Part shown: in pieces, positions 1 to 19,145 of the stretch | Position numbering within the stretch: the stretch's first letter is position 1 | Layout: every line of letters starts with the position of its first letter | Source: a virus | DNA: 22,548 bases | Direction: 5' to 3' (one strand) | Virus record (IMG/VR): IMGVR_UViG_3300018030_000012 | Span: 1-22,548 of that record | Notes under the pieces: model-generated | Told to the model about the DNA's origin: nothing | The model's database searches: none | What the model saw: the letters and a program-made list of their open reading frames with translations, nothing else | Program-made: the position numbers and the translations under genes

Positions 1-681
1 CCCGCTAAACCGGCGCAAAAAATTCTGATGAACCCAATCGCCCAACCCGGTGACTTCCGCTACATGGACCCGCCGAATCTGCCTCCGTACATCGGAGAGT
101 TTCTCCGGTATCTCGTCGAGACGATCAAGAAACGTTCTGGATCATTGGACATCTCCGGCATCGCCAAGAAAAAGCAAGTGCCGGGAGGTGAAGCCATCGA
201 ACAGATGAGGGAGACGTTGAGCGGTCCATTCCAATTGGAAAGCCGCTACCTTGAGATCGCATTAGAAGAAGCTGGGTCACAGATGGTATCGAACGTCTTC
301 CAGTACGCCACTTTAAGCGGACGTATGAGAGTGCTGGGGGCAGACGGGATGACGCCGGAAGACTTCGATTACGACGCTGGGACCATGGTTCCTTCCTCGG
401 CACCGAAGGAGGATTTCTGGCGGGCATTCAGTATGAAGATCGCTCCTGGATCGACTCACGGAACGAGTAGAATGCAGAAGGAGGTGAGGGCGGCCACGTA
501 TTTCAAGATGGGCGCTCTGTCACTTCACGGTCTTTATCGGCAAGCGGAATTCCCGGAGAACGCAGACCTTGTCATACAGGAAATGCAGAAAGAACACGAG
601 GCGGGTATTGGTGGAGGGCCGAAGGGTGCAGGAAGAACGCCGCGTCAAACGAGAAGTCAGCGACAGGGCTCACCCGTATAG
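1..681 (+). CDS. Portal protein, C-terminal part (5' end outside window)
   Basis: The frame is open from the first base and ends with TAG at 679-681, so the gene starts upstream of the window. The visible 227 residues resemble the C-terminal part of podovirus-type portal proteins, the dodecameric ring through which DNA is packaged. Visible signs are a helical stretch with alternating acidic and basic residues, a segment 'MTPEDFDYDAG' followed by 'MVPSS', then 'IAPGSTHGTSRMQKE' and a hydrophobic helix. Portals of this group typically have a 'D.GNMVP' segment and a 'PGS.H....R.....Y' segment near their ends. The tail is Gly/Arg/Gln-rich and probably disordered. Position just before small head genes, scaffold and capsid fits the usual gene order. 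The family call is from motif resemblance only; the N-terminal part is not available. Confidence 0.72.
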   Translation, partial: PAKPAQKILMNPIAQPGDFRYMDPPNLPPYIGEFLRYLVETIKKRSGSLDISGIAKKKQVPGGEAIEQMRETLSGPFQLESRYLEIALEEAGSQMVSNVFQYATLSGRMRVLGADGMTPEDFDYDAGTMVPSSAPKEDFWRAFSMKIAPGSTHGTSRMQKEVRAATYFKMGALSLHGLYRQAEFPENADLVIQEMQKEHEAGIGGGPKGAGRTPRQTRSQRQGSPV

Positions 682-703
682 CGCCTGGACCCCGTTCACC
701 TTG

Positions 704-829
704 ATGTCTCTCTACCTTCACGTACAAAGAGGGGGTTGGGGGTACATGGTTGTGGTACGCGATCTTGGTCAGTGGAAGCATCCGAACGGAGAGCGCGGTG
801 GCACGATGCTCGAACTATCGCTGAGTTGA
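704..829 (+). CDS. Small hypothetical protein (41 aa), doubtful
   Basis: A 41-residue frame starts at ATG 704, 22 bases after the portal stop, and ends with TGA at 827-829. The peptide begins 'MSLYLHVQRGGWGYMVVV' and reads like a short beta-rich phage protein, but I recognise no family. The same frame is open back to 569 inside the portal gene; that part looks like an arginine-rich shadow, so the internal ATG is preferred. No clear SD precedes it. Its stop codon overlaps a perfect 16-bp palindrome. It may be a real small gene or simply an open frame. Confidence 0.33.
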   Translation: MSLYLHVQRGGWGYMVVVRDLGQWKHPNGERGGTMLELSLS

Positions 830-844
830 GTCCCACGTGGGACT
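829..844. repeat. Perfect 16-bp palindrome, copy 1 of the GTCC(C/A)ACGT motif
   Basis: AGTCCCACGTGGGACT is a perfect inverted repeat lying between the 3' ends of a rightward and a leftward frame. It is the most symmetrical member of a motif that recurs at 7021, 16075, 19149, 20047 and 21615. As RNA it could form a 6-bp stem with an ACGU loop, but no T-tract follows, so a protein-binding site is as likely as a terminator. Confidence 0.6.
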
Positions 845-851
845 ACCGCCA

Positions 852-1091
852 TCACTCGTATCCCTCCAAGAGAATCCTTTGAACCTGGAGGTAGTGCTCG
901 TACTTGACGATCACTACCAATGGCTTGTTGGTGATCTGGTCCTGAACAACTATTGGTCGTCTTAGTTGGCGCAGCGCCTTAGCATTTAGAAGCCTCAGTT
1001 TGCTAGTTCCGATGTACTCAAGATTAGGGTCTACGAATGGGAAGTGAGGAATCTCGGAAGTCCATAGTTTCAAGTCTTTAGGGGTAGCCAC
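852..1091 (-). CDS. Phd/YefM-like small protein (orphan antitoxin or regulator)
   Basis: This leftward gene encodes 79 residues from a GTG at 1089-1091. Residues about 30-72 ('SKLRLLNAKALRQL' then 'PIVVQDQITNKPLVVIVKYEHYL') match the pattern of Phd/YefM-type proteins: a helix, a 'PIVI' strand, a turn with '.NKPL.V', then '.YE.YL'. Family members are antitoxins that bind DNA and repress their own promoter, and similar stand-alone proteins occur in phages. No toxin gene lies next to it, so it is an orphan by context. A sigma70-like promoter (1099-1127) places transcription start one base before GTG, with only a weak TTGGA upstream, so it is probably translated without a leader. The palindrome TGTCTAGACA covers the -35 box and could be its operator. 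DNA binding and antitoxin activity are inferred. Confidence 0.6.
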   Translation of the reverse strand: MATPKDLKLWTSEIPHFPFVDPNLEYIGTSKLRLLNAKALRQLRRPIVVQDQITNKPLVVIVKYEHYLQVQRILLEGYE

Positions 1092-1131
1092 TGATCCAAG
1101 AATAGCCAGAAAGTGAGCAACTGTCTAGACA
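1092..1131 (-). promoter_or_regulatory. Promoter of the Phd-like gene with overlapping palindromic operator
   Basis: Read leftward, TAGACA (1127-1122), a 17-nt spacer and TATTCT (1104-1099) form a sigma70-type promoter. The expected start is A1092, one base before the GTG codon. The perfect 10-bp palindrome TGTCTAGACA (1122-1131) includes the whole -35 box, as expected for a repressor site. The -10 box is only a partial match. Confidence 0.5.
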
Positions 1132-1220
1132 CGTTGGGAAGCATCCCCTTTCATTGACTTGTAGTACGTTTATTACAGCCTCAGGTTCCGTTTGAGGACT
1201 TTTACGAAGGGAGGCCCACC

Positions 1221-1265
1221 ATGGCACGTCGGGGAAAGAAAGGCCGCAAGCACGGTCGCAAGTAA
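1221..1265 (+). CDS. 14-aa Lys/Arg-rich micropeptide
   Basis: ATG at 1221 is preceded by AGGGAGG with a 6-base gap, one of the better ribosome-binding sites in the window. The frame encodes MARRGKKGRKHGRK and stops with TAA at 1263-1265. Nine of the 14 residues are Lys or Arg. It resembles the start of two other basic proteins here (1358-1420 and 22203-22421), all beginning MAR. A nucleic-acid or packaging-related role is a guess from charge. The strong SD is the main reason to call so short a gene. Confidence 0.5.
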   Translation: MARRGKKGRKHGRK

Positions 1266-1284
1266 CCCAACACGCCTCCCGCTG

Positions 1285-1331
1285 GGGTGGCCCGGTGGCG
1301 TGCCTAAGTCAAGAAAATAGGCCACCCTTTA
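1285..1331 (+). terminator. Possible intrinsic terminator
   Basis: GGGTGGCC (1285-1292) pairs perfectly with GGCCACCC (1320-1327), an 8-bp stem followed by TTTATT. The 27-nt loop is long and the T-tract imperfect, so termination may be weak. It lies between the two micropeptide genes. Confidence 0.4.
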
Positions 1332-1357
1332 TTCCAGCATGACCACGGAAAAAATTT

Positions 1358-1420
1358 ATGGCCAGAAAGAAGGGCAGGAAGAAGGCATCGCGCCGTAACA
1401 AGCGCGTGTACCGGAGATAG
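1358..1420 (+). CDS. 20-aa Lys/Arg-rich micropeptide
   Basis: ATG at 1358 opens a 20-codon frame, MARKKGRKKASRRNKRVYRR, ending with TAG at 1418-1420. Twelve of 20 residues are Lys or Arg. The upstream SD is weak (an A-rich stretch after CACGGA). The stop lies 3 bases before the next ATG and the next gene's GGAG site lies inside this frame, which suggests coupled translation. It is similar in style to the 14-aa peptide upstream and to the N terminus of the 72-aa basic protein at 22203. Function unknown. Confidence 0.5.
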   Translation: MARKKGRKKASRRNKRVYRR

Positions 1421-1423
1421 TCT

Positions 1424-1732
1424 ATGAAATACCCTCAAAACTTTCACGCAACTTCGAGCAAGGAGAAGTTAGCCCAAGGCCCGAAAGATATGCCGGATCG
1501 AGGCGGTCCCAAACCGAACGCCCATATCACGGCAACCCAGGTTTCCCTCAGCCGTAAACCGAATCCAGTCGCCGCCTTCGGCGATAGGCAGAGTCATGGC
1601 GAGCACTCGCACGACGGGGCCACGCTTGTCAATTTGTCGAGGAAGGCAAGCAGCCCATACGACAAGGACGGGATGAGCGAGACAACTATGCAGCACTCGT
1701 TCGAAGGGAAGAATCGGACCAAGAAGGCGTAA
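1424..1732 (+). CDS. Hypothetical phage protein (102 aa)
   Basis: ATG at 1424 follows GGAG at a good distance, and the stop TAA directly abuts the next ATG. The 102 residues are polar, rich in Ser, Lys, His and Pro, with no hydrophobic core segment or signal. Two related short segments, 'VSLSRKPNPVAAFG' and 'VNLSRKASSPYDKDG', suggest a small internal duplication. I recognise no family. Position between portal and scaffold and tight packing suggest a minor head-associated or assembly protein, but this is context only. Confidence 0.6.
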   Translation: MKYPQNFHATSSKEKLAQGPKDMPDRGGPKPNAHITATQVSLSRKPNPVAAFGDRQSHGEHSHDGATLVNLSRKASSPYDKDGMSETTMQHSFEGKNRTKKA

Positions 1733-2101
1733 ATGGCCACGGGCACCACACCTCCGCTGCCTCCTGACATTATCCAGCAACAGCAGGCCCCTCCAGAGCA
1801 GCAGCAATCGGTATTCTCAGCGCAAGGCGTCAATCAGCCCCAGGATGGGATGCAGGTCGTGCAACAGGTGATGGGGCAGATTCAAAAGCTCGACCAGTGG
1901 GTGGGTGAGACGAAAACCCTATTGGAATCCTTCGACCCCTCATTGGTTCCACTGTTCAAACCGATCGCCGAAGCGGGCATGAAACTCGCCGAAGAGATCC
2001 AGAAGAAAGCACAGCGGAGCGGAATGGCCAAGGGTAGCCCGGTAGTGCCGCCGCAACCGCCGTCTAACCCATCAGCCGGACCTCCCAGTCCGGTGATGTA
2101 A
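1733..2101 (+). CDS. Hypothetical head-region protein, Pro/Gln-rich ends (122 aa)
   Basis: This gene starts directly after the previous stop (TAA then ATG), so translation is probably coupled. It has three parts: a Pro/Gln-rich disordered N terminus (about residues 1-45, with runs of Q), a helical middle (about 46-95, 'VVQQVMGQIQKLDQWVGETKTLLESF' type heptads), and a Pro/Ser-rich tail. The helical centre could oligomerise. Small proteins of this build are common between portal and scaffold genes of environmental phages, where their role is usually unassigned. I do not recognise a named family. Confidence 0.6.
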   Translation: MATGTTPPLPPDIIQQQQAPPEQQQSVFSAQGVNQPQDGMQVVQQVMGQIQKLDQWVGETKTLLESFDPSLVPLFKPIAEAGMKLAEEIQKKAQRSGMAKGSPVVPPQPPSNPSAGPPSPVM

Positions 2102-2113
2102 GAGAGAATAAAG

Positions 2114-3037
2114 ATGCCCTTTGAGAACCTATTAGCCGCGATCGCCGATGACGGCGAACGCAACAGTCTCAAGGCCATCTCCGAGAAGTATCCTGCCGTG
2201 AAACGATATGCCGAACTTGGGGAGCAAGTGGAACCATTACTTCCCAGGGTCAAAGCACTTCAATACGAAACTCTGCCTCCGGTAGTCGAGGAGTTGGAGA
2301 AATGGCGGCACTTCAAGGAAACAGATTGGCCTATGTGGGAACAAGAACACAGCCGCGTTCGGACATCACTAGCCGAAGCCACCGCAGAGGTGGAGAAGTT
2401 GCGGGCGCGTGGAGAACTTGATATGACCGCCGAAGACGTAAAGAAGTTGATCGATGAATCGCTGACCGCGAAGGGCGTGGTGGATGTGAACACGCTGACC
2501 TCGAAGCTGACGGAATTTCGGGACAAGGAAATCCGCCCCGAACTGAACTCGACTATCAACGGTTGGGGCAATCGCTTCCAGGAGGTCTACCAGAAATTGA
2601 CGCCGAAATTCGGGGCGCACGAGAAGACCTTCGGAGAGGCCTTGGATGCGCCCGCCGTCTTCGAGCACATGAAGAAGTTGGCCGAAGCTAAGAAAACATC
2701 GATGGCGAACATCGACCCAGACGAAGCCTACAACGACTTCTACAAGGATAAGTTCGCAGCACGCGATACGGCGACCCGTGAAGCGGAGAAGAAGGCGGCT
2801 CGCGAAGAAGGCATTGCGGAGGGCCGCAAGCAAGCAGCGGCGTTGAGCGGGCACAGTCCGACGATTGTGGACGGCGGCGGTGGCGGAAGGAAGCTGGGAC
2901 CTTTGCAGCGGCGCCAACTGGAACGGTTGAAGCCCAAGGAAGGCGACGCCATTGAAGCGCCTTTAGGTAAAGGGATCATCTCGCAGCAGTACGTCCAGAA
3001 GAAGTTAGAGAAGGAAATGAGCGGGAGCGCAGTATAG
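2114..3037 (+). CDS. Scaffold-like capsid assembly protein
   Basis: The 307-residue product is almost wholly helical and highly charged, with coiled-coil stretches at about 65-105 and 210-240. It has a Gly-rich hinge ('DGGGGGR', about 252-260) and a basic C-terminal segment (about 258-305). Internal scaffolds of tailed phages have this build: long helices and a positively charged C-terminal end that binds the capsid protein. Its place directly before the major capsid gene, apart from the inserted endonuclease gene, supports the role. A weak AGAGAG site precedes ATG 2114. No protease motif is visible. The assignment is from architecture and gene order. Confidence 0.62.
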   Translation: MPFENLLAAIADDGERNSLKAISEKYPAVKRYAELGEQVEPLLPRVKALQYETLPPVVEELEKWRHFKETDWPMWEQEHSRVRTSLAEATAEVEKLRARGELDMTAEDVKKLIDESLTAKGVVDVNTLTSKLTEFRDKEIRPELNSTINGWGNRFQEVYQKLTPKFGAHEKTFGEALDAPAVFEHMKKLAEAKKTSMANIDPDEAYNDFYKDKFAARDTATREAEKKAAREEGIAEGRKQAAALSGHSPTIVDGGGGGRKLGPLQRRQLERLKPKEGDAIEAPLGKGIISQQYVQKKLEKEMSGSAV

Positions 3038-3044
3038 CGCTCCC
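3023..3044. terminator. Hairpin across the scaffold stop codon, between convergent genes
   Basis: GGGAGCGC (3023-3030) and GCGCTCCC (3037-3044) form a perfect 8-bp stem with loop AGTATA, placed over the scaffold stop at 3035-3037. It sits between a rightward and a leftward gene and could work in both directions. Neither side has a T-tract, so it may instead be an mRNA-stabilising hairpin. Confidence 0.4.
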
Positions 3045-3060
3045 GAAAGGCAAGATGAGG

Positions 3061-3768
3061 CTAGGAAACAGCGGCGATCTTTCGGTGACTCGCAAGGTAA
3101 GCGATTGCCTTGACGAGCAAGGCCGGGTCGTCCAAAAACCCACCGAGGCCTGTATTGCACTTCTCGCAAAGGAGTGCTCGGTGAGTGCCGGGGAAATTGT
3201 GATTGTGATCGACGGCCAGCCTCTCGTTCTTCGGTCCTCCGCTGGGCGGCTTACCGCAAATGGCGCACAGACCGTTCTGCGCAGTCTCAAGGGACTTTCG
3301 TCCTTCTGGACTGAGGCCGTAGAGTTTGTATTCCATACGTTCTCTACGGGACATGTGATTCTTCGGCGTGTGATACCAAGTCGTAGATCTCGCGCAGGCG
3401 CACTTCTTGCAGATGTTGCTTCTTCCGCCCGGAGATCTGCAATGAGCCGAAAAGTCATCTATCGACAGGATGGATTGGCAGATAGTACAGACCTTCTGTC
3501 CTTCGAGGATCGTGATATTCGGGCAGGTTGCGAAATGTCTCTGAAGAAGCAACTGCACGGTCTTGTGTCCGCAGTAGTTGCAAGACACAGGCATTCCCGG
3601 ACCTTTCTTTGGGGCCTCTTTTATCGTCTTCGGCAGGTTCTTAGGGTTAAGCTCGCACCGTTTTCGGTGCGGCCATATTTCTCTGGCGGAATGTTGTTCT
3701 CCGCAGTGAGGACAGGCCTTGTACACGCGAGTACTCAGTCTGATCTTTGTTTGCTGGGGTTGTTCCAT
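3061..3768 (-). CDS. Free-standing HNH / recombination endonuclease VII-type homing endonuclease
   Basis: This leftward gene encodes 235 residues from ATG at 3766-3768. The C-terminal half carries the endonuclease VII-type His-Me (HNH) site: C168-x2-C171, D187-H188-N189-H190, then L199-L-C201-x2-C204-N205. The cysteines should bind structural zinc, and the DH/N residues should bind the catalytic metal and the scissile phosphate. The N-terminal part has two fingers of identical spacing, C-x2-C-x11-H-x3-C (C19-C38 and C63-C82), and a third Cys pair set (C94-x2-C97, C120-x2-C123), probably for DNA recognition. It lies antisense between scaffold and the intron-split capsid gene, not inside either intron. 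Its promoter starts transcription at the ATG. Family members cut DNA and often mobilise themselves or a neighbouring intron. A 7-codon longer TTG start is rejected because it falls inside the -10 box. Confidence 0.85.
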   Translation of the reverse strand: MEQPQQTKIRLSTRVYKACPHCGEQHSAREIWPHRKRCELNPKNLPKTIKEAPKKGPGMPVSCNYCGHKTVQLLLQRHFATCPNITILEGQKVCTICQSILSIDDFSAHCRSPGGRSNICKKCACARSTTWYHTPKNHMSRRERMEYKLYGLSPEGRKSLETAQNGLCAICGKPPSGGPKNERLAVDHNHNFPGTHRALLCEKCNTGLGGFLDDPALLVKAIAYLASHRKIAAVS

Positions 3769-3803
3769 ACGTTTAGTGTACGCCAACCCCTACTCAATGT
3801 CAA
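3769..3803 (-). promoter_or_regulatory. Strong sigma70-type promoter giving a leaderless HNH mRNA
   Basis: Read leftward, a perfect TTGACA (3803-3798), exactly 17 nt of spacer and TACACT (3780-3775) lie upstream of the HNH gene. Six bases (3774-3769) separate the -10 box from ATG, so the expected +1 is the A of the start codon. No SD is possible in such a transcript. The promoter lies in the gap just before the capsid SD. Confidence 0.7.
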
Positions 3804-3823
3804 TGAAATAGGAGGTACGTAGA

Positions 3824-5293
3824 ATGGCCTTGCAGCTAACGGAGCTGGACGCCTTAGACATAGGGCCTTAGCCGAGAGATCGGTTATGCAAACCTCGTGA
3901 ATTGCTGGGACACCTAAACCCGAATTGGCGGGCAAGGCAATCAGCAGCCAAGCCGACGAGAGTCGGAAGGTTCAACGATCATCCCGAGAGGGAGTAGGGC
4001 CAAGCGGCCCGAAGCGCGAGGCGACCCGAAGCGGGCCGATGAGATGATCTGCTCTGCTGGGAAACTTGCAGAAGGCCGGGAATAGCGAACCCGGTCGCAA
4101 CATCAAGGATGTGTACGATTACATCGTAGAGAAGACAACGGATTAACTGATAGTCCCTTGGCGGTGAAAGCCGCCTCGAAAACCGCGTGAATTGCTGGGA
4201 AGCCCTTCGGGGTAATCAGCAGCGAAGCCCAGAAATGGGAACGTTCAACGGCCATCCCTTCGGGGAGTACGGGCAAGTGCTCGGAAGCGCGCGGCACCCT
4301 TCGGGGTGATGATATGGTCTGGTCTCACATGAAAGTGTGAGAAGGCCGGGAATAGCGAACCCGGTCGCAACACGAACGATCATCTACGGTGCAGATCCTG
4401 CATTTACTAGGCTCAGTCAGCAGAGAGCAGAACGATTCGCGGGCAACAGCCGCGTAAGGAGGCCCGTGATTGTTGGGGAACTCCTCGGCGATTTTATGGG
4501 CAAGGGCGAAACGATGGACATCAACTTCGTTACGACCGACGCGGCGATCACGGTGGACCTGAAGGTAGCGTGGGTAAACATCACGCTATACGGATGGGAC
4601 GCGATGAACGACGATGGCCAAGAGGCGATTTTCAATCAGGTAGAGATGAAGTTCCTCAACGCCTCATTGAAGATGGCGAAGATCCTGGCCGTCAATATGT
4701 ACCAGAACGGGCAGGGTGCGCGGGCTAAATACCTGAACGGATTTGATGAGTGGATCGACGACGGAACAAATTACTCCCAAGTCGGCGGCCAGAACCGAAC
4801 CGATATCAATGGTTTGACGACTGGCACCGTTGGCGGGCTGAATGCCTATCAGGCCACGGTGACCACGTTCACCTTGGCACAACTCAACACGGCCTATGGA
4901 AACGCCTGTTGGGGCTCGGATCACCCGGACCTGATAGTGGTCACACAGAACGGCTGGAACTTGATCTGGCAGGGCACGCAGCCTGCAATGCGGTATGAGA
5001 ATAAAGACAACGATCTGGCCAACGTGGGATTCCAGAACTTCAGGTTCAATGCCGCCGATGTGGTCATTTCGCGGTATCTTCCTTCGGGTAGCTCGCCGAT
5101 CGGCAAGATGTTCGGATTGAACACGGCCTACGTGGAGTGGTACTTCTCCCAGGTAGACCTGTTTCAATTCGGGTTTACCGGATTCAAGGGCGTGAACAAC
5201 TCGATCGATGTGAGCGGCCAGTTCCTTAGCGGCTCAAATCTAATGGTGCCAAGCCCCCGGACCTGTTTCAAACTCGCCTCGACGCTTTTCTGA
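3824..5293 (+). CDS. Major capsid protein gene split by two group I introns: join(3824..3854,4109..4143,4379..5293)
   Basis: The gene starts at ATG 3824, 7 bases after GGAGGT (3811-3816). Unspliced it stops at TAG 3869-3871. Removing 3855-4108 and 4144-4378 gives 31+35+915 nt, one frame of 326 aa ending at TGA 5291-5293. The joined N terminus reads MALQLTELDA-YVYDYIVEKTTD-IIYGADPAFTRL. This fits tailed-phage capsid proteins, which often begin 'MA.TL.ELDA...' and continue '..D.I....PL...L'. The body has usual capsid features: 'GETMDINFVTTDAAITVDLKVAWVN' type strands, a long helix (about 'VEMKFLNASLKMAKILAVNMYQ'), 'PDLIVVTQNGW', 'GFQNFRFNAADVVISR', 'FGLNTAYVEW' and a C-terminal 'PR...KL'. Gene order after scaffold agrees. 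It should form the icosahedral shell in the host cytoplasm. Splice sites come from P1/P10 pairing and frame, not from RNA data. Confidence 0.85.
3855..4108 (+). ncRNA. Group I intron 1 (254 nt, IA-like) in the capsid gene
   Basis: Helices found by eye: P1 GCCTTA/TAGGGC (3851-3856/3861-3866) with the splice-site U3854 opposite G3863; P2 3872-3883; P3 CCTCGTG/CGCGAGG (3893-3899/4015-4021); P4 TGCTG/CAGCA (3903-3907/3942-3946); P5a CCCG/CGGG (3919-3922/3929-3932); P6 CCGAC-gaga-GTCGG (3953-3966); P7 GATCAT/ATGATC (3977-3982/4044-4049); P7.1 3983-3992; P7.2 GGGCC/GGCCC (3997-4010); P8 CCCG/CGGG (4025-4035); P9 4053-4072; and a further hairpin GGCCGGG/CCCGGTC (4074-4096). P10 is ACAT (3858-3861) with exon bases ATGT (4109-4112). 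The 3' end is G4108. P7.1/P7.2 between P7 and P3' is typical of subgroup IA. No ORF is inside. It should self-splice using a guanosine cofactor. Confidence 0.9.
4109..4143 (+). other. 35-nt microexon (exon 2) of the capsid gene
   Basis: This stretch supplies two bases of a split Tyr codon and 11 full codons (VYDYIVEKTTD). Its boundaries follow from P10 pairing at the left (ATGT) and P1 pairing at the right (GGAT|TA with U4143 opposite G4153). Skipping it would join exon 1 to exon 3 in the wrong phase and give a stop after about ten codons, so both splicing events are needed for capsid protein. Confidence 0.8.
4144..4378 (+). ncRNA. Group I intron 2 (235 nt, IA-like) in the capsid gene
   Basis: The fold matches intron 1 helix for helix: P1 GGATTA/TAGTCC (4140-4145/4151-4156) with U4143 opposite G4153; P2 GGCGG/CCGCC (4160-4175); P3 CCGCGTG/CGCGCGG (4183-4189/4288-4294); P4 TGCTG/CAGCA (4193-4197/4217-4221); P5 CCC-ttcg-GGG (4203-4212); P6 CCCA-gaaa-TGGG (4228-4239); P7 GGCCAT/ATGGTC (4250-4255/4314-4319); P7.1 CCC-ttcg-GGG (4256-4265); P7.2 CGGGC/GCTCG (4270-4283); P8 CACCC-ttcg-GGGTG (4295-4308); P9 TCTCACA/TGTGAGA (4323-4342); and the same GGCCGGG/CCCGGTC hairpin (4344-4366). 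P10 is TGAT (4148-4151) with ATCA (4379-4382). The 3' end is G4378. P3 and P7 bases differ from intron 1 but still pair. Three UUCG loops cap stems. No ORF inside. Confidence 0.9.
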
Positions 5294-5344
5294 GTGTTTT
5301 CAATGAGTTGCGTGGCAGAGGAAAAAGAAGTGAGGATCATGTAA

Positions 5345-5869
5345 ATGACACAACAAGGATTAGCAGGCAATCTCGGCGGCACAATCCAGTTTTGGAGTTT
5401 CCAGTTCACCTATCTGGACCTCCAGACTACGAGCACCAGCTCCGGCGTGGCGTACACGTTCAATCTCTACAACACGCTGAGCGGGCCGCCGTATAACACG
5501 AGCACTGCGATGACGTTCCCGCAGGGCAGTTTTCTGCTCTACATGCGGGTCAAGCACTCGACATCGTTCACCGGCGGTTCGCTCACTGGGATGACGGTCA
5601 GTGTAGGGAAGTCGGGCGGGACAACCAACTTCTTCACTCAGCCGTTCAATGTGTTCCAGGCGGTGGCCGACACGACCATCCAGGAGACGTTCGCACAGCC
5701 GATGGGTCAGTTGTCGGCGGTCACCCCCCAGGTGACCTTTACGCCAACAGGTGACACCTTGGCTCACTGCACGGCTGGCGTGTTGAATATCGACGTCGCC
5801 ATGTTCCGTGTGACGACTCCGTCACAGTACGTTGCCAACAACATCGTGCTCAATTCGAGCGTGCTCTAA
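5345..5869 (+). CDS. Beta-rich virion protein (174 aa), possible capsid decoration or head protein
   Basis: ATG 5345 abuts the stop of a 13-codon frame (5303-5344) that itself carries GAGGATC, so the start may be reached by coupling. The product is rich in Thr, Ser, Gly, Phe and Val, with alternating hydrophobic strands ('IQFWSFQFTYLDL', 'GSFLLYMRVKH', 'VLNIDVAMFRV') and few charged residues. This is typical of small beta-sandwich virion proteins. It lies directly after the capsid gene, where decoration or head-stabilising proteins are often found. I do not recognise a named family, and the role is inferred from build and position. Confidence 0.6.
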   Translation: MTQQGLAGNLGGTIQFWSFQFTYLDLQTTSTSSGVAYTFNLYNTLSGPPYNTSTAMTFPQGSFLLYMRVKHSTSFTGGSLTGMTVSVGKSGGTTNFFTQPFNVFQAVADTTIQETFAQPMGQLSAVTPQVTFTPTGDTLAHCTAGVLNIDVAMFRVTTPSQYVANNIVLNSSVL

Positions 5870-5878
5870 GGAGGATTC

Positions 5879-6427
5879 ATGCCGTCTTTCATTGCGACTC
5901 CGGCTTATCTTCCCAGCGAACAGCAGATGTTCTACGCCAATACGCTGCCTACGGCTTCGTCGGACGTGACCGGGATGAACCTCAAACTCGGGGACCTGAT
6001 CTGGATCACGTCCGCCTCCGCTGGCCAGCCGCTTATTTACAAGTTGGTGAGCGCTCCCAGCACGACCTACCCTGGCGGGGCTTGGCAGAAGATAGCTGCG
6101 TGGGTGTCCAAGCCTACCTCGGTTTCGGCGGCGTACACCGTCAACGGAGCCACCGACGATTATGTCGTCATGACTGGAACCAGCGCGTTTGCAGTAACGC
6201 TGTGCGATGCCACGGTTTTCGTCGGCAAGTCCATCACGATCGCTAGAGTGGGTGCTGGCAACGGAACTGTGGTCTGCCAGTCGGGGCAGAATCTCGGGAA
6301 CGCCCACACCACGATCACCTTCCACTCGGACGAATCGGCAGTCACGCTGCTGTCGGACGGAACGCAGTGGCAAGTGGAAGATGCCAGCACCAGTACTAGC
6401 TCAAGCCCGGCCCCGACGAGCAGTTAA
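5879..6427 (+). CDS. Beta-helix-like virion protein (182 aa)
   Basis: A strong AGGAGGA site precedes ATG 5879. Residues about 1-75 include 'LKLGDLIWITSASAGQPLIYKLVSAP'. Residues about 78-170 follow a pattern common in phage fibre and head-fibre domains: 'AAYTVNGATDDYVVMTG', 'AVTLCDATVFVGKSITIARV', 'GTVVCQSGQNL', 'ESAVTLLSDGTQWQVED'. In that pattern a zero-value strand is followed by 'G..ITI..v', a 'tI.....l' turn and a final 'vtl.SDGT.W.v' strand. The C-terminal Ser/Thr/Pro tail looks disordered. It is probably a surface-exposed virion protein; the receptor-binding possibility is inference. Confidence 0.6.
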   Translation: MPSFIATPAYLPSEQQMFYANTLPTASSDVTGMNLKLGDLIWITSASAGQPLIYKLVSAPSTTYPGGAWQKIAAWVSKPTSVSAAYTVNGATDDYVVMTGTSAFAVTLCDATVFVGKSITIARVGAGNGTVVCQSGQNLGNAHTTITFHSDESAVTLLSDGTQWQVEDASTSTSSSPAPTSS

Positions 6428-6446
6428 TGGAGGTCAAGAGAGGATT

Positions 6447-6905
6447 ATGATTACCAACGTTTATCAAAGCGGATCGCAGTTCAACCCGGCTGGAGCATAC
6501 AACCCAGTCACTCCGTCGCAGGTCTCGTACACAATCGCATGGCAGGGGCAATTGACGGGAAGCTCCCCGGCTGGATCGTCCTACCAGACCTCAATCACCA
6601 ATCACATCTTTACCGCCGATGCGCCGTGTCAAGTGGTGGCGGTGACGGAGCGCCACAGCGTTCTGGGTTCGACCGCCGGTATGCTGGTTCACGCGGTTGG
6701 CTCAACGCCACTCGGGTCTTCGGCGAACGTGTTGGCTTCCACCATATCTCACTTCTCGGCGGTGGACGTTTATCAGCAGGGCACGCTGTTCAACTCGACC
6801 GTATTGACTGTATTGGCGGTCGGTGACGGCCTCGGCTGGCGCTGGTCAATTCCCGGTGCGTTGCCTCCGGTAGGCGGCGTCACGGTCACGCTTGAATACA
6901 TCTAA
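6447..6905 (+). CDS. Beta-rich virion protein (152 aa)
   Basis: The chosen ATG at 6447 follows AGAGGA; the frame is open further upstream, but that part overlaps the previous gene and looks like its shadow. The product begins MITNVYQSGSQFNPAGAYNP and contains two strand-rich segments, about 'HIFTADAPCQVVAVTERHSVLG' and 'NSTVLTVLAVGDGLGWRWSIPG', ending 'GGVTVTLEYI'. Proteins of this shape, ending in a short 'v.vtl.y' strand, are common after capsid genes in environmental phages. They are thought to be head or baseplate accessories. It is the last gene before a strong terminator. Confidence 0.6.
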   Translation: MITNVYQSGSQFNPAGAYNPVTPSQVSYTIAWQGQLTGSSPAGSSYQTSITNHIFTADAPCQVVAVTERHSVLGSTAGMLVHAVGSTPLGSSANVLASTISHFSAVDVYQQGTLFNSTVLTVLAVGDGLGWRWSIPGALPPVGGVTVTLEYI

Positions 6906-15106: not shown

Positions 15107-17314
15107 ATGCAGGTAACGATCATCAGCCCCGTCACTTTCGAGCCTTGGGATATGCGCAACCCTGAGGACCCCGGAATAGGCGGTTCGGAGACCGCCGTTG
15201 TGGAGGTTTCTAGGCGCTTGGCGAGGCGCGGGCACGAGGTGGTGGTCTACGCCCCCCTGCGGCAGGATACGCCCCCTGAGTGGCTAGGGACGCGCTGGCT
15301 ACCCCTTTCTGAGGCCGATTACACCCGGCCTGGATGGTGGTTCGTGTCTCGGTGCCCAGAGGTCCTCGATAATTTCCCCCTTGAGCATCCCGGACAGGTC
15401 TTGTCATTGGTTAGCCAAGATGTGTTCTACCCCCACCTTACCGAGGAACGGTGGGAGAAATTAGACCGCTTTATCGCTCTCTGCCCGACTCATGCCAGTT
15501 TCACGATGAAAGAGTACCCCAAATACGCCAAGAAGGTGTGCCAGGGGTTCAATGGCATCCGAAACGACTTGATACGGGAGATCGAGGCCGAAGGCGTGCC
15601 CACGAGAAATCCAAGGAAGATCATCTTTGCCAGTTCTCCTGATCGCGGACTCCTCCCCCTGTTGAAGATCTTCCGTAAAGCGCGTCAGTGGGTGCATGAC
15701 CTTGAATTGGTCATTGCCTACGGGTTCGACAACATGGAGAAGATCATCGCCTCGAACCCGCCGACCAATCAGTGGAAGCTGATTTACGATGAGGCCATGC
15801 GGGAGATGAAACAACCGGGGGTCACTCATCTGGGCAGGATCGGGCAGAAGCGGCTATACCAGGAGAAATTGTCCTGTGGGATGTCGGCTCACCCGACGCT
15901 GTTTACGGAAACGGGGTTTATTTCTGGTATCGAAGAAATGGCGCTGGGTGCCATCCCGATCATTTCCCCAACATGGGCAGCGGGAGACTATTGCCTTCAT
16001 GGAATCTGGATCTTTGGTGATCCAGAAGATCCGTTAACGCAGGCCCGGTATGTTGGGGAGATTTACAAGCTGGCGTCCAACGTGGGACTGCAAGAGCAGA
16101 TCCGCGCCGACATGATGCCGTGGGCAAGATCTACCTTCAACTGGGAGCGGTACATCGACTTCATCGAGACATGGATGTATGGTGTCGAGGATCACAAAAA
16201 CACCGGCGCACAGTTCATCTTTGCGCTCAAGCACTCTAAGGGTCAGGGGAAGATTCTGAATGTAGGGTGTTGCGACGATGGCGGAGAAATGCGGAAGATC
16301 GGTGCCGTTAATCTTGACAAGTACGAGTTCGACAAGCACCTTTGTAAACCCAACGCAGCGGACATCATTTCAGACGCCCGCGACCTCCCCCGACCGTTTC
16401 AGCGGCATTCGTTCGATGTTGTGGCCGCGACAGAGATTCTGGAGCACTTTCCCACGGACGCGGTTCCCAAGCAACTCTTGAAGTTCAAGGAACTGCTGAA
16501 ACCCGGTGGCAGGATTGTCTTCACTGTTCCGAATGACACGCGGCATCCGAATCCAGACGACTCCATAGCACCATCGGGATATGGTGAGCACCATCACTGT
16601 CCTCCTGAAGTGATCGACTCGTGGCTGAGGGAAGCGCATTTGAAGGCAATTGTCCGATACCCAATCGAGTATGGATTTGACCCAGTATGTGGGGAAGGGG
16701 TGGTAGCAGTGGACGACAGACCGAAGTACTCTGTAGTGTTTGTGGATTACGATCCAGAAGGTAAAGTCAGGGAGATGTCGGCCCGAAGCCTTGGGTTAAT
16801 CAAACAGAACTCCCCCGAAGGGATCGAGATCATCGTTGCCGATCAGAAAGGAGAGGCCACCGCCATCAATTTAGCCTTCGAAAAAGCGCAAGGGCAGTTT
16901 ATTTTCATCGTGTGCAATGACGTTATGATCGAAGATCCCGATTGGCTGGAGACAATGGCAGTCCCAGAAACGGTTACTTCGTGGGCACCTGAGACCTTCG
17001 TATTGACTGGCCAGATGAAGCTGGAAACCTCGCTGTGGTGCATCCCGAGAAACGTCTACGAGGCTGTCGGCGGATACGTTTATGACGAGGAGTTCAACGG
17101 AGGATACGGATTTCTCGATGACGATTTTCTGGCGCGAGCCAGAATCGCCGGGTTTACAATCGCCGTTAAACCCGTTAGAGCCCAACACCTTCAAGGCCAA
17201 ACCTTCCGCTCGTATTATGACCAAGAAGAGTTTCGTCGAAGGTACGACCGGAACATGGAGATCTTCAAGAAGAAGTGGGATCACGCCAAGCCTCCCGGAG
17301 GATGGCTGAGATGA
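15107..17314 (+). CDS. Three-domain glycosyltransferase (GT4) - SAM methyltransferase - GT2 fusion (735 aa)
   Basis: Three enzyme-like units lie in one chain. Residues 1-360 are GT-B/GT4-like: 'IISPVTFEPWD', the acceptor-side GGSET loop at 25-29, a segment 'KIIFASSPDRGLLPLLKIF' (about 170-190) and the donor-side 'ETGFISGIEEMALGAIPIIS'. Residues about 380-535 are a class I SAM methyltransferase: 'ILNVGCCDDGG' (motif I, 383-393), 'FDVVAATEILEHF' (436-448) and 'LKPGGRIVFTVP'. Residues about 545-735 are a GT-A/GT2-like unit: 'ADQKGEATAINLAFEKA', 'ND' at 604-605 in the DxD position, 'GGY', and 'GFLDDDFLARARIAGF' (about 668-683). Such enzymes build and methylate glycans on phage or host surfaces. 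ATG 15107 abuts the previous stop. The next gene overlaps by ATGA. Sugar and target cannot be told from sequence. Confidence 0.8.
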   Translation: MQVTIISPVTFEPWDMRNPEDPGIGGSETAVVEVSRRLARRGHEVVVYAPLRQDTPPEWLGTRWLPLSEADYTRPGWWFVSRCPEVLDNFPLEHPGQVLSLVSQDVFYPHLTEERWEKLDRFIALCPTHASFTMKEYPKYAKKVCQGFNGIRNDLIREIEAEGVPTRNPRKIIFASSPDRGLLPLLKIFRKARQWVHDLELVIAYGFDNMEKIIASNPPTNQWKLIYDEAMREMKQPGVTHLGRIGQKRLYQEKLSCGMSAHPTLFTETGFISGIEEMALGAIPIISPTWAAGDYCLHGIWIFGDPEDPLTQARYVGEIYKLASNVGLQEQIRADMMPWARSTFNWERYIDFIETWMYGVEDHKNTGAQFIFALKHSKGQGKILNVGCCDDGGEMRKIGAVNLDKYEFDKHLCKPNAADIISDARDLPRPFQRHSFDVVAATEILEHFPTDAVPKQLLKFKELLKPGGRIVFTVPNDTRHPNPDDSIAPSGYGEHHHCPPEVIDSWLREAHLKAIVRYPIEYGFDPVCGEGVVAVDDRPKYSVVFVDYDPEGKVREMSARSLGLIKQNSPEGIEIIVADQKGEATAINLAFEKAQGQFIFIVCNDVMIEDPDWLETMAVPETVTSWAPETFVLTGQMKLETSLWCIPRNVYEAVGGYVYDEEFNGGYGFLDDDFLARARIAGFTIAVKPVRAQHLQGQTFRSYYDQEEFRRRYDRNMEIFKKKWDHAKPPGGWLR
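16075..16088. repeat. Palindromic motif copy inside the glycosyltransferase fusion gene (GTCCAACGTGGGAC)
   Basis: This copy has one symmetrical-position mismatch (A opposite G) and lies in codons for SNVG. It is the only near-complete copy well inside a gene; a weaker match (12 of 14) lies in the capsid gene at 5017-5030. Chance cannot be excluded for coding copies. Confidence 0.4.
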
Positions 17315-17772
17315 TTTATATATTTGACATTGACGGTACCCTCGCGGATTTATCGCATCGCCTTCACCTAATCACTCGCAAGCCAGACCACACACCAAAC
17401 GCGGCAGATTGGCGCGCTTTCTTCGCGGCTTGTCCCAACGATAAGCCAATAGATGAAGTGATCCGAGTCGCCAGGATTCTATGGGATGCCGGATACGGAA
17501 TAGTCCTCATATCGGGGCGAAGCGACGAAGTGGAGGCCGCGACTACTTCATGGCTTGTGAAGCACGATGTCCAGTTTAGCGGCCTGTACATGCGCAAGCA
17601 AGGGGACCACCGAGAAGATTCCGTTGTGAAATCGGAGTTGCTCGACCAACTCATTAAAGACAGGCCAGGAGGAGTTGAAATCGGTGGAGTCTTTGAGGAT
17701 CGTAAGCAAGTAGTGGACATGTACCGCGCTCGTGGCCTACGGGTCTTTCAAGTTGCGGACGGTAATTTCTAA
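17311..17772 (+). CDS. HAD-family polynucleotide 3'-phosphatase-like protein (153 aa)
   Basis: The chosen ATG 17311 overlaps the upstream stop (ATGA) and begins MIYIFDIDGTLAD. HAD motifs are complete: nucleophile D6 and acid/base D8 in DIDGT, motif II S68-G-R, K107 as the motif III lysine, and E129-D130 as motif IV. Residues 90-153 ('LYMRKQGDHREDSVVKSELL', 'FEDRKQVVDMYRARGLRVFQVADGNF') closely follow the C-terminal phosphatase domain of T4 polynucleotide kinase/phosphatase, which ends '.DDR.QVV.MWR..G....QVA.GDF'. There is no kinase (P-loop) domain. The likely reaction is removal of 3'-phosphate from nucleic acid ends; nucleotide or sugar phosphate is possible. It lies inside a glycosyltransferase operon. 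Confidence 0.75.
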   Translation: MIYIFDIDGTLADLSHRLHLITRKPDHTPNAADWRAFFAACPNDKPIDEVIRVARILWDAGYGIVLISGRSDEVEAATTSWLVKHDVQFSGLYMRKQGDHREDSVVKSELLDQLIKDRPGGVEIGGVFEDRKQVVDMYRARGLRVFQVADGNF

Positions 17773-18440
17773 TGACGCCTCTGGTCAGTGTTCTCAGCCC
17801 CACAATTAGGGGGCTTCAGGCCCTTCGGCCCATCGAGCAATCCCTGAAGGATCAGACGTGCCAAGATTTTGAATGGCTGGTGGAGATCGACAGCGGAAAA
17901 GAGCATCGGCTCAACGCCGCATTCAACTCGATGCTCCGTAGGGCGCGCGGGAAACTGGTGGTGGTAGCTGAGGACTGGCTCTGGTTTGAGCGCGACGGAC
18001 TTCAGAAGTTTGTTGAGGCATTCAGATCCATGTCGGGGTACTTCTTCACCGCCCCTGTCCCGAAGGCTCCTGGGTATTGGGAGATGAACGGGAAGATGTT
18101 CTACAAGACACCCTTAGTCAAAGAGTGGAGATCTGAAAATCGCGGTGAACCGCATTGGATGAACTGGGAGGCCGATTGGGCAGCGGCACCACTGAAGGCA
18201 TTGAAGGACATCGGCGGGTTCGATGAGCGCATGGACCAGAAATGGGCTTGCGACAATCAAAGCGTCGCGTTTCGGGCGAGCAAGCGGGGGTGGAAATTCT
18301 GGAATCTGATCGACAACCCCGCCGTGGCTTTAAACCATGATGCGTTTTGGGAGCACCCCTTCCGTCATCTGTATGACCCGGAGTGGTCCAAACAACAGAT
18401 TGAACGATTTGAGCACGAAGACCTGCCGCCACTGGAGTGA
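17772..18440 (+). CDS. GT2-like glycosyltransferase (222 aa)
   Basis: The start overlaps the HAD stop (TAATG). The N terminus 'LVSVLSPTIRGLQALRPIEQSLKDQTCQDFEWLVEID' is the usual GT2 nucleotide-binding start (SV..PT...... L..SL..Q....FEWLV..D). 'VVVAEDWLWF' (about 63-72) takes the DxD position but shows only E67-D68. 'GGFDERMDQKWACDNQSVAFRASKRGW' (148-174) resembles the GT2 acceptor-side region. The chain is short for the family and lacks membrane segments, so it is cytoplasmic. It probably adds a sugar to the same glycan as the fusion protein upstream. Donor and acceptor are not predictable. Confidence 0.75.
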   Translation: MTPLVSVLSPTIRGLQALRPIEQSLKDQTCQDFEWLVEIDSGKEHRLNAAFNSMLRRARGKLVVVAEDWLWFERDGLQKFVEAFRSMSGYFFTAPVPKAPGYWEMNGKMFYKTPLVKEWRSENRGEPHWMNWEADWAAAPLKALKDIGGFDERMDQKWACDNQSVAFRASKRGWKFWNLIDNPAVALNHDAFWEHPFRHLYDPEWSKQQIERFEHEDLPPLE

Positions 18441-18443
18441 ACC

Positions 18444-19145
18444 ATGCTGCTGATGAATAAGCCGATTGGGACCCTTGGGATCATGGGATCCGTTCCCTCG
18501 GTGCCGTGGGAGTTCTGCTGGTCCCTTGCCCAAATGATACAGTTCGACTCCGAGTTCCTTTGTAAGCCCGGTGAGTATGTTCACTTGATGGCCCCGAGCA
18601 CTTCTTACCATTCCTCCGCGAGAAATCAGCTTGTGAAGGGGATGATGGGAGACTGGCTGCTGATGTTGGATACCGATCATGCTTTTGACCCCGACATCGC
18701 GGTTCGTATGATTCAGTTGATGAAGAAGTGCGATGTGGAAGTGCTTTCGGCCCTCTATAGGTACAAGGTCTACCCTCACCTCCCAGTGGCCTTTCATTGG
18801 AACGAAGAAACCCAAGGCTTCGTGACCATCGCGGAACTGGACTGGAACGCCATGCTCCAGCAAGTATCGTGTGTGGGGGCCGGATGCCTGTTGGTAAAAC
18901 GCCGGGTATTCGACCGGATTCAGAACGAATTAGGGGAACAGCCGTTCGACATCATCGGCCAATGGTCCGAGGACTTCTCGCTCTTTATACGCCTGCGGAG
19001 GTTGGGGATCAAGACCTACATCTCTCCCCTAATCGAGAGTTACCATTTGCGAACCCACAAGGTCACGAATGCAGACTACGATCGAAGCGCCGTGCAGACG
19101 ATGCCGATCCCCACAGGTGGGGAGATGGTGATCGGAAAGAGATAG
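18444..19145 (+). CDS. GT2-like glycosyltransferase with DTD motif (233 aa)
   Basis: ATG 18444 lies 3 bases after the previous stop. 'SSARNQLVKGMMGDWLLMLDTDHAFDPD' (57-84) carries the D76-T-D78 metal/nucleotide-sugar motif and the helix before it. 'VGAGCLLVKRRVFD' (about 144-157) and 'WSEDFSLFIRLRRLGIKTYISP' (174-195) are the usual later GT2 features, with E176-D177 in the catalytic-base region. The final His-containing 'SYHLRTHK' segment is also common. No membrane segment. Members with this build occur in many phages, often next to other transferases. Probable cytoplasmic GT-A enzyme; substrate unknown. Confidence 0.78.
   Translation: MLLMNKPIGTLGIMGSVPSVPWEFCWSLAQMIQFDSEFLCKPGEYVHLMAPSTSYHSSARNQLVKGMMGDWLLMLDTDHAFDPDIAVRMIQLMKKCDVEVLSALYRYKVYPHLPVAFHWNEETQGFVTIAELDWNAMLQQVSCVGAGCLLVKRRVFDRIQNELGEQPFDIIGQWSEDFSLFIRLRRLGIKTYISPLIESYHLRTHKVTNADYDRSAVQTMPIPTGGEMVIGKR

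Follow-up and report, generated by a model that had tools for sequence, protein, structure and literature searches.

Collaborative homing has been described in print (PMC6083498; PMC10448857; PMC3984707), and the free-standing enzyme F-CphI, encoded beside an intron-bearing psbA gene, is reported to cut only the intronless allele of that gene (PMC6083498). Introns are also known from phage capsid genes: splicing of the capsid transcript of LittleE was demonstrated by RT-PCR and protein sequencing, and the same paper mentions a capsid-gene intron in Tuc2009 (PMC3706429). Closely spaced group I introns are documented as well, as in the Coxiella 23S rRNA gene, where two of them surround a 34-nt exon, and engineered tandem introns have been described in which exon skipping is suppressed by differing splice-site elements (PMC10136302). 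Two introns occur in the terminase gene of the phage Moonbeam (PMC4299906), phages rich in introns are known (PMC12363816), and the endonuclease of an intron can be detrimental to a phage that shares its host cell (PMC11620839).

The locus presented here lies in a window of 22,548 bases, the whole stretch of DNA that was analyzed, from the IMG/VR virus record IMGVR_UViG_3300018030_000012. All parts of its major capsid gene are on the plus strand. A Shine-Dalgarno-like AGGAGGT, recognized by reading the sequence (3810-3816), precedes a first exon of 31 nt (3824-3854), delimited by the frame and by relatives. It is followed by an ORF-less group I intron of 254 nt (intron 1, 3855-4108; identified by Rfam RF00028, P1 and covariation), a second exon of 35 nt (4109-4143) delimited by alignment to intronless relatives (e.g., L007-L009 and L013-L015), a second ORF-less group I intron of 235 nt (intron 2, 4144-4378; Rfam RF00028 and covariation) and a third exon of 915 nt (4379-5293) that matches the major head protein family PHROG 9953. 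A sequence-only reading of this DNA had already proposed two ORF-less group I introns of these lengths at these positions and an unspliced capsid frame that stops after 15 codons, and its coordinates proved correct. The in-frame stop of intron 1 lies at 3869, and an in-frame TAA forms the first bases of intron 2. If intron 2 were kept, the capsid frame would end after 22 codons, and skipping of exon 2 would shift it; no long frame was found inside either insertion.

Joining the three exons (31 + 35 + 915 nt) yields the single open frame of 326 aa that had been expected from splicing at these sites. The predicted spliced protein matches PHROG 9953 from profile position 22 onwards (E 1.7e-17), while the match of the unspliced ORF begins only at profile position 73 (E 6.9e-17). 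Six phage records matched the capsid in a tblastn search, none of them covering more than 80% of the query, and the five annotated matches are capsid, head or virion structural proteins with 23-25% identity over 59-63% of the query. A structure prediction for the capsid, made with 18 aligned rows that lacked the first 53 residues, reached a mean pLDDT of 38 and was set aside. Five further viral records (L003, L004, L005, L006, and L017) share the 2501 nt around the insertions at 100% identity, and the insertions are therefore not the error of one assembly. The exact 51-nt spliced junction, looked for as evidence of splicing at the RNA level, had no match in the viral contig collection, and 52 pattern matches in the genome contig collection, searched for a host or prophage, included no confirmed relative. 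Elsewhere in the window, a frame of 735 aa (15107-17314) combines Pfam matches that exceed their cut-offs, to glycosyltransferase 4-like and methyltransferase families, with a sub-threshold match to glycosyltransferase 2, and weak glycosyltransferase 2 matches occur at 17772-18440 (under cut-off) and 18444-19145 (just over it). No tandem repeats were found in the window.

As the sequence-only reading had anticipated, the group I covariance model recognizes both elements. In a cmscan search with Rfam RF00028 (gathering cut-off 50 bits), intron 1 scored 51.8 bits (E 1e-10) and intron 2 82.2 bits (E 8.2e-20); both matches extend over the full 253 positions of the model, and no other Rfam family exceeded its cut-off in the window. 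We analyzed covariation in a set of seven related introns with their flanks, using a structure of 71 pairs in which P7 is treated as a pseudoknot. Overall 95.7% of the 489 cells are paired, both sides have changed at 37 of the 71 pairs, and on each of five measures the observed covariation value was reached by none of 500 shuffles. Controls with slid partners gave 32-43% paired cells, a comparison that flatters the structure since it was derived from the same alignment, whose seven related rows are a small sample and in which the L016 row is misaligned at P1. The structure proposed by RNAalifold itself comprises 66 pairs, 35 of them with changes on both sides. The helices P1, P3, and P7 are formed as had been claimed and covary over the seven introns, P3 with 98.0% of cells paired and three pairs changed on both sides, and P7 with 97.6% and two such pairs.

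The splice sites fit this fold. All seven distinct introns (235-258 nt) are preceded by U and end on G, which includes the two 3' ends for which a terminal G had been noted. In each, P1 carries a U-G pair at the 5' splice site, and the guide sequence fits four exon bases that end with the U of this pair; the exon bases so paired vary between introns (GCCU, GGAU, GCGU, CGAU). The case for P10 is weak and does not rise above chance: the 4-bp pairings that had been claimed exist, the best pairings being 5 bp for intron 1 and 4 bp for intron 2, but shuffled 3' exons do as well in 21% and 15% of 500 trials, respectively, and the five related introns have P10 pairings of 2-4 bp. In group I introns of subgroup IA, the segment that separates P7 from the 3' strand of P3 folds into two additional hairpins (P7.1/P7.2). 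Two hairpins are found at alignment columns 150-161 and 166-179, with 100% of cells paired, and the layout of both introns appears IA-like. The minimum free energy structure of the 577-nt region makes parts of the two introns pair with each other (z -4.3), which decides nothing because pseudoknots lie outside that model. That one or both introns have lost the ability to splice, in a defective phage or as a decaying insertion, would suit the score of intron 1, which is barely over the Rfam cut-off of 50 bits; given that core helices and P7 are intact and covarying, that the exons stay in frame through both junctions and that the region is identical in the window and five other records, we regard this as very improbable.

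Relatives of the capsid gene provide a natural series of insertion states. A protein scan of the viral contig collection retrieved 17 capsid loci, among which the five records identical to the window carry both introns, L010-L012 carry one at the site of intron 2, L016 carries one farther downstream, and L007-L009, L013-L015, L018, and L019 have none. The intronless L007-type capsid is 89% identical to the predicted spliced product and aligns without a gap across both junctions, an alignment that had been named as a check on the predicted splice sites. The L007 type reads MALQLTELDAYVYDHIVDKTTDIIYGADP where the joined exons of the window read MALQLTELDAYVYDYIVEKTTDIIYGADP (the first residue of L007, encoded by GTG, is read as M), so that no residue is gained or lost at either junction. 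It is extremely improbable that the insertions are something other than introns, i.e., segments skipped by translational bypassing or artefacts of assembly, as this is contradicted by the Rfam matches and covariation as well as by the five further identical records and the series of zero, one and two insertions, and we found no point in its support.

A profile scan extended the set to 32 capsid loci, and a wider scan, of which the best 80 of 102 stretches were used, to 79 loci including these 32. They form 49 clusters at 95% identity and 50 units once L204 and L206, which differ by an insertion, are parted. The capsids of these two are at least 95% identical, and L206 with its ORF-bearing insertion and L204 without it make a natural plus/minus pair. 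Among the 50 units from the best 80 of 102 stretches, six have introns over the Rfam cut-off (the window, L040, L048, L050, L051, and L064). Five intron sites are known in the coding sequence, at nt 27 (L050), nt 31 (intron 1 of the window), nt 57 (L064, if its frame is taken to begin at ACG), nt 66 (intron 2 of the window, L011, and L051) and nt 155 (L016), all within the first 155 of 981 nt. If sites were evenly spread the chance of this would be ~1e-4, a crude figure because the introns share descent. The L050 intron also uses GGAU, the bases found where intron 2 sits, but lies elsewhere in the gene. Two peculiarities of these relatives may be mentioned: in L064 (2587-2604) no ATG, GTG or TTG is found at the expected capsid start, which has ACG or ATA behind GGAGG, and in L050 six tRNA genes (5605-6652) lie ~1.8 kb downstream of the capsid gene. 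In four more distant units (L196, L206, L229, and L232) the capsid frame is interrupted further in, by an insertion with an internal ORF. LAGLIDADG_1 is matched by the ORFs of L196, L232, and L229, with scores that pass the Pfam cut-off in the first two and fall short of it in the third, and no Pfam match was found for that of L206. The Rfam group I scores of these insertions are all under the cut-off (L232, 40.5 bits; L206, 28.0; L229, 27.9), and that of L196 had no Rfam group I match.

The two introns of the window share a peculiarity absent from the sequence-only reading. A stretch of 33 nt comprising the last hairpin and 3' tail is identical in intron 1 (4070-4102, plus strand) and intron 2 (4340-4372, plus strand), and ends in each 6 nt short of the 3' splice site. 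Simple duplication of one intron was considered as the origin of the pair and rejected, because outside the last 31 alignment columns the two agree at 132 of 219 columns and each is nearer to an intron of a relative than to the other, which for intron 2 is the one that occupies its site in L011 (79%) and for intron 1 the one of L050 (74%). The trees of the seven introns have no starred branch. As read from these comparisons, the pair would stem from two separate acquisitions followed by an exchange of tails, and the identical 33-nt tails may be a gene-conversion patch. We also considered whether exon sequence flanking intron 2 had been co-converted. Codons 21-30 are 97% alike between the window and L011, and codons 81-100 are 97-100% alike; since the latter match as well as the former, there is no clear signal of co-conversion.

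A gene that the sequence-only reading had not remarked on lies immediately upstream. It encodes a free-standing endonuclease VII-type protein of 235 aa (3061-3768, minus strand; PF02945, E 4.4e-18; PHROG 2633, E 2.8e-30), starts at a conserved ATG at 3768 (the longest ORF starts from a TTG at 3786), and is antisense to the capsid gene, 55 bp upstream of its start. The spacer between scaffold and capsid genes measures 786 nt in the window versus ~50 nt, without the enzyme gene, in the L007 type. Two C2HC zinc-finger-like motifs lie N-terminal to a nuclease motif, CAIC...DHNH...R...CEKCN, in the last third of the protein. The motif of DHHRN homing endonucleases, as defined in PMC6083498 (CxxC, DHxH, R, CxxC, N), is thus present at the C-terminus of this putative homing enzyme. 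By sequence profile the nearest solved structures are Hpy99I (E 9.4e-16) and then T4 endonuclease VII (2.4e-9). The predicted structure of the enzyme has a mean pLDDT of 75, and its only PDB matches at E <0.001 are the two chains of Hpy99I, a resemblance that is partial (TM 0.18-0.22, rmsd 15). Hpy99I and F-CphI were placed in an endonuclease clade with a mostly C-terminal motif, apart from resolvases (PMC6083498). In our tree of 12 enzymes the branches are very long and none is starred.

The position of the motif and the rank of Hpy99I ahead of T4 endonuclease VII bear on an alternative in which the introns self-splice and the enzyme gene is an unrelated neighbour, either a homing gene with its own target or a phage Holliday junction resolvase, the introns having moved by a lost endonuclease or by reverse splicing. 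Both features speak against it, as does the lack of any PF02945 match in a related record of 95 kb (G025) and in one of 16 kb with an 89% identical capsid (G005), although these records may be fragments. The PF02945 domain was searched across 15 whole records, themselves possibly fragments, of which eight bear introns. Seven of the eight have one match, so that a resolvase role of this sole copy is possible there, and G028 has two, one under cut-off. The intronless G011, G009, and G019 have three or four each (two of G019's under cut-off), and the other four records have none. The unrelated-neighbour alternative is also suited by the GGAU of L050 at another place, as expected of movement driven by the guide sequence, and by enzyme genes beside capsid genes without ORF-less introns, which were found in four of 44 units (L045, L053, L223, and L231; best 80 of 102 stretches). 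On the whole we consider it unlikely. In L045, the full enzyme gene upstream of the intronless capsid gene is accompanied by a second, shorter endonuclease VII-like stretch (the two at 1775-2050 and 2054-2692, minus strand), perhaps the remnant of an earlier copy.

Counted by a nuclease-domain profile (a regular expression flags the same loci), the enzyme gene lies directly upstream of the capsid gene in 10 of the 50 units from the best 80 of 102 stretches, i.e., in all six units with ORF-less introns versus the four mentioned above, an association with a Fisher p of 1.3e-5 that is uncorrected for kinship. L205 and L225, with a copy ~1.7 kb further up, were not counted as adjacent. Independent support for the association is thin, because all six units with ORF-less introns fall inside one 10-row clade (SH-aLRT 100, no bootstrap). 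Two independent pairs are available on starred branches and three on all branches, and on average the enzyme gene follows the introns in 1.7 of two pairs, in none of which does it run counter to them (sign test p 0.5-1). The capsid relatives L007-L009 have neither introns nor the enzyme gene. The four units with ORF-bearing insertions have no adjacent endonuclease VII-type gene, and in each of the ten interrupted units (best 80 of 102 stretches) one finds either an insertion with an inner ORF or an ORF-less one with an outer enzyme gene, which is what collaborative homing predicts and yet is not proof of it.

We propose that these are self-splicing group I introns mobilized by collaborative homing via the upstream endonuclease VII-type gene, which we judge probable, this gene being likely the key to the movement of introns that have no ORF of their own. 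The capsid mRNA would carry two related, separately acquired ORF-less introns, the internal guide sequence of each pairing with the last four exon bases, and external GTP would cut each intron, after which the exons would be ligated. Both introns would consequently have to leave before any capsid protein is made. The stops at or just after the 5' splice sites would keep ribosomes out of the ribozymes. The enzyme would cleave intron-free and enzyme-free capsid alleles near codons 9-52, and repair from this genome would copy the enzyme gene and the introns together; once copied, the introns would interrupt the target of the enzyme, as in collaborative homing. Collaborative homing is favoured because Rfam matches, covariation, guide fit, the series of intron numbers and the adjacency of the enzyme gene in six of six units agree with it, and because Hpy99I ranks first, the nuclease motif is C-terminal and five sites fall in the first 155 nt. 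It is weakened by the confinement to one clade, the four intronless units that bear the enzyme gene, the partial structural match to Hpy99I, and the four distant units whose ORF-bearing insertions have no such neighbour.

More tentatively, one free-standing enzyme might serve the whole set of ORF-less introns, the stretch it would recognize at the capsid N-terminus being an insertion hot spot where introns settle wherever their guide fits (five sites so far); the second intron might then lock the genome twice, both against the enzyme and against losing its protection, and the exchange of the 33-nt tail a side effect of crowding. We judge this extension less likely than not. If collaborative homing holds here, synthesis of the shell protein would have to wait until two ribozymes had done their work within a single short leader, and a single DNA-cutting enzyme would both mobilize two introns together and be excluded by them. 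The relatives with zero, one or two introns at five nearby sites, with or without the enzyme gene, offer a ready set for studying the origin of collaborative homing, which has been called unclear (PMC10448857).

Putative intron arrays were also encountered in capsid genes of other viruses. Among the viral contigs, a pattern scan found the core motif of the window introns (GTGAATTGCTGG...GGNAATCAGCAGCNAAG) in at least 119 stretches, and Rfam was applied to six of these loci. A major capsid gene on the minus strand of the 279-kb record L131 (IMGVR_UViG_3300044846_005229; 1-5451), with a relative in Synechococcus phage S-CBWM1, appears to be split by at least eight group I introns. Its short colinear exons cover residues 11-31, 32-50, 55-64, 66-94, 95-106, 107-121, 122-289, and 290-299, and the region has 11 Rfam group I matches over cut-off, eight between exons and three upstream of the first mapped exon; over its full length the record gives 17 at E 0.001, not all of which pass the cut-off. 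One gap between exons contains a homing endonuclease ORF (PHROG 655). In or near the major capsid genes of L148, L133, L146, L115, and L111 we found 9, 4, 6, 6, and 1 group I matches over cut-off, respectively. It seems that arrays of introns have repeatedly targeted capsid genes.

Each part of the locus is thus of a known kind. The arrangement of two ORF-less introns so close together in a capsid gene had been called unusual, and this holds for the combination, for which we found no report: among the open-licence PMC papers covered, none was found to describe a phage capsid gene that has two ORF-less introns and a free-standing endonuclease beside it. It does not hold for the parts, as tandem introns with a tiny exon and capsid-gene introns are published in the accounts of PMC10136302 and PMC3706429. 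With no description found, we regard the combination in a capsid gene as a new variant. With its 35-nt exon, the pair belongs with tandem group I introns that enclose a short internal exon. It resembles introns 2 and 3 of Twort Orf142, similar group I introns that flank an exon of 23 nt; exon skipping is reported there, whereas here it would shift the frame and the guide sequences differ (PMC10136302). LittleE, a Cluster J mycobacteriophage, likewise has a probable group I intron in its major capsid gene and intronless relatives, but in the form of a single insertion of ~819 bp with an internal endonuclease-like ORF (PMC3706429). The terminase intron of ICP1 has an endonuclease gene (T5orf172) beside rather than within it, as here, and differs in enzyme family, in the gene concerned and in being single (PMC10448857). 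With collaborative homing the locus shares ORF-less introns adjacent to a free-standing endonuclease gene and the existence of intronless relatives without that gene (L007-L009). The psbA intron of cyanophage S-PM2 and F-CphI, as described in PMC6083498, combine a group I intron in a phage gene with an adjacent free-standing endonuclease, and both enzymes have the endonuclease VII catalytic motif at the C-terminus; the present locus differs from that system in that the host gene encodes the capsid, two introns accompany one enzyme, related introns occupy five sites, and cleavage by the enzyme is inferred.
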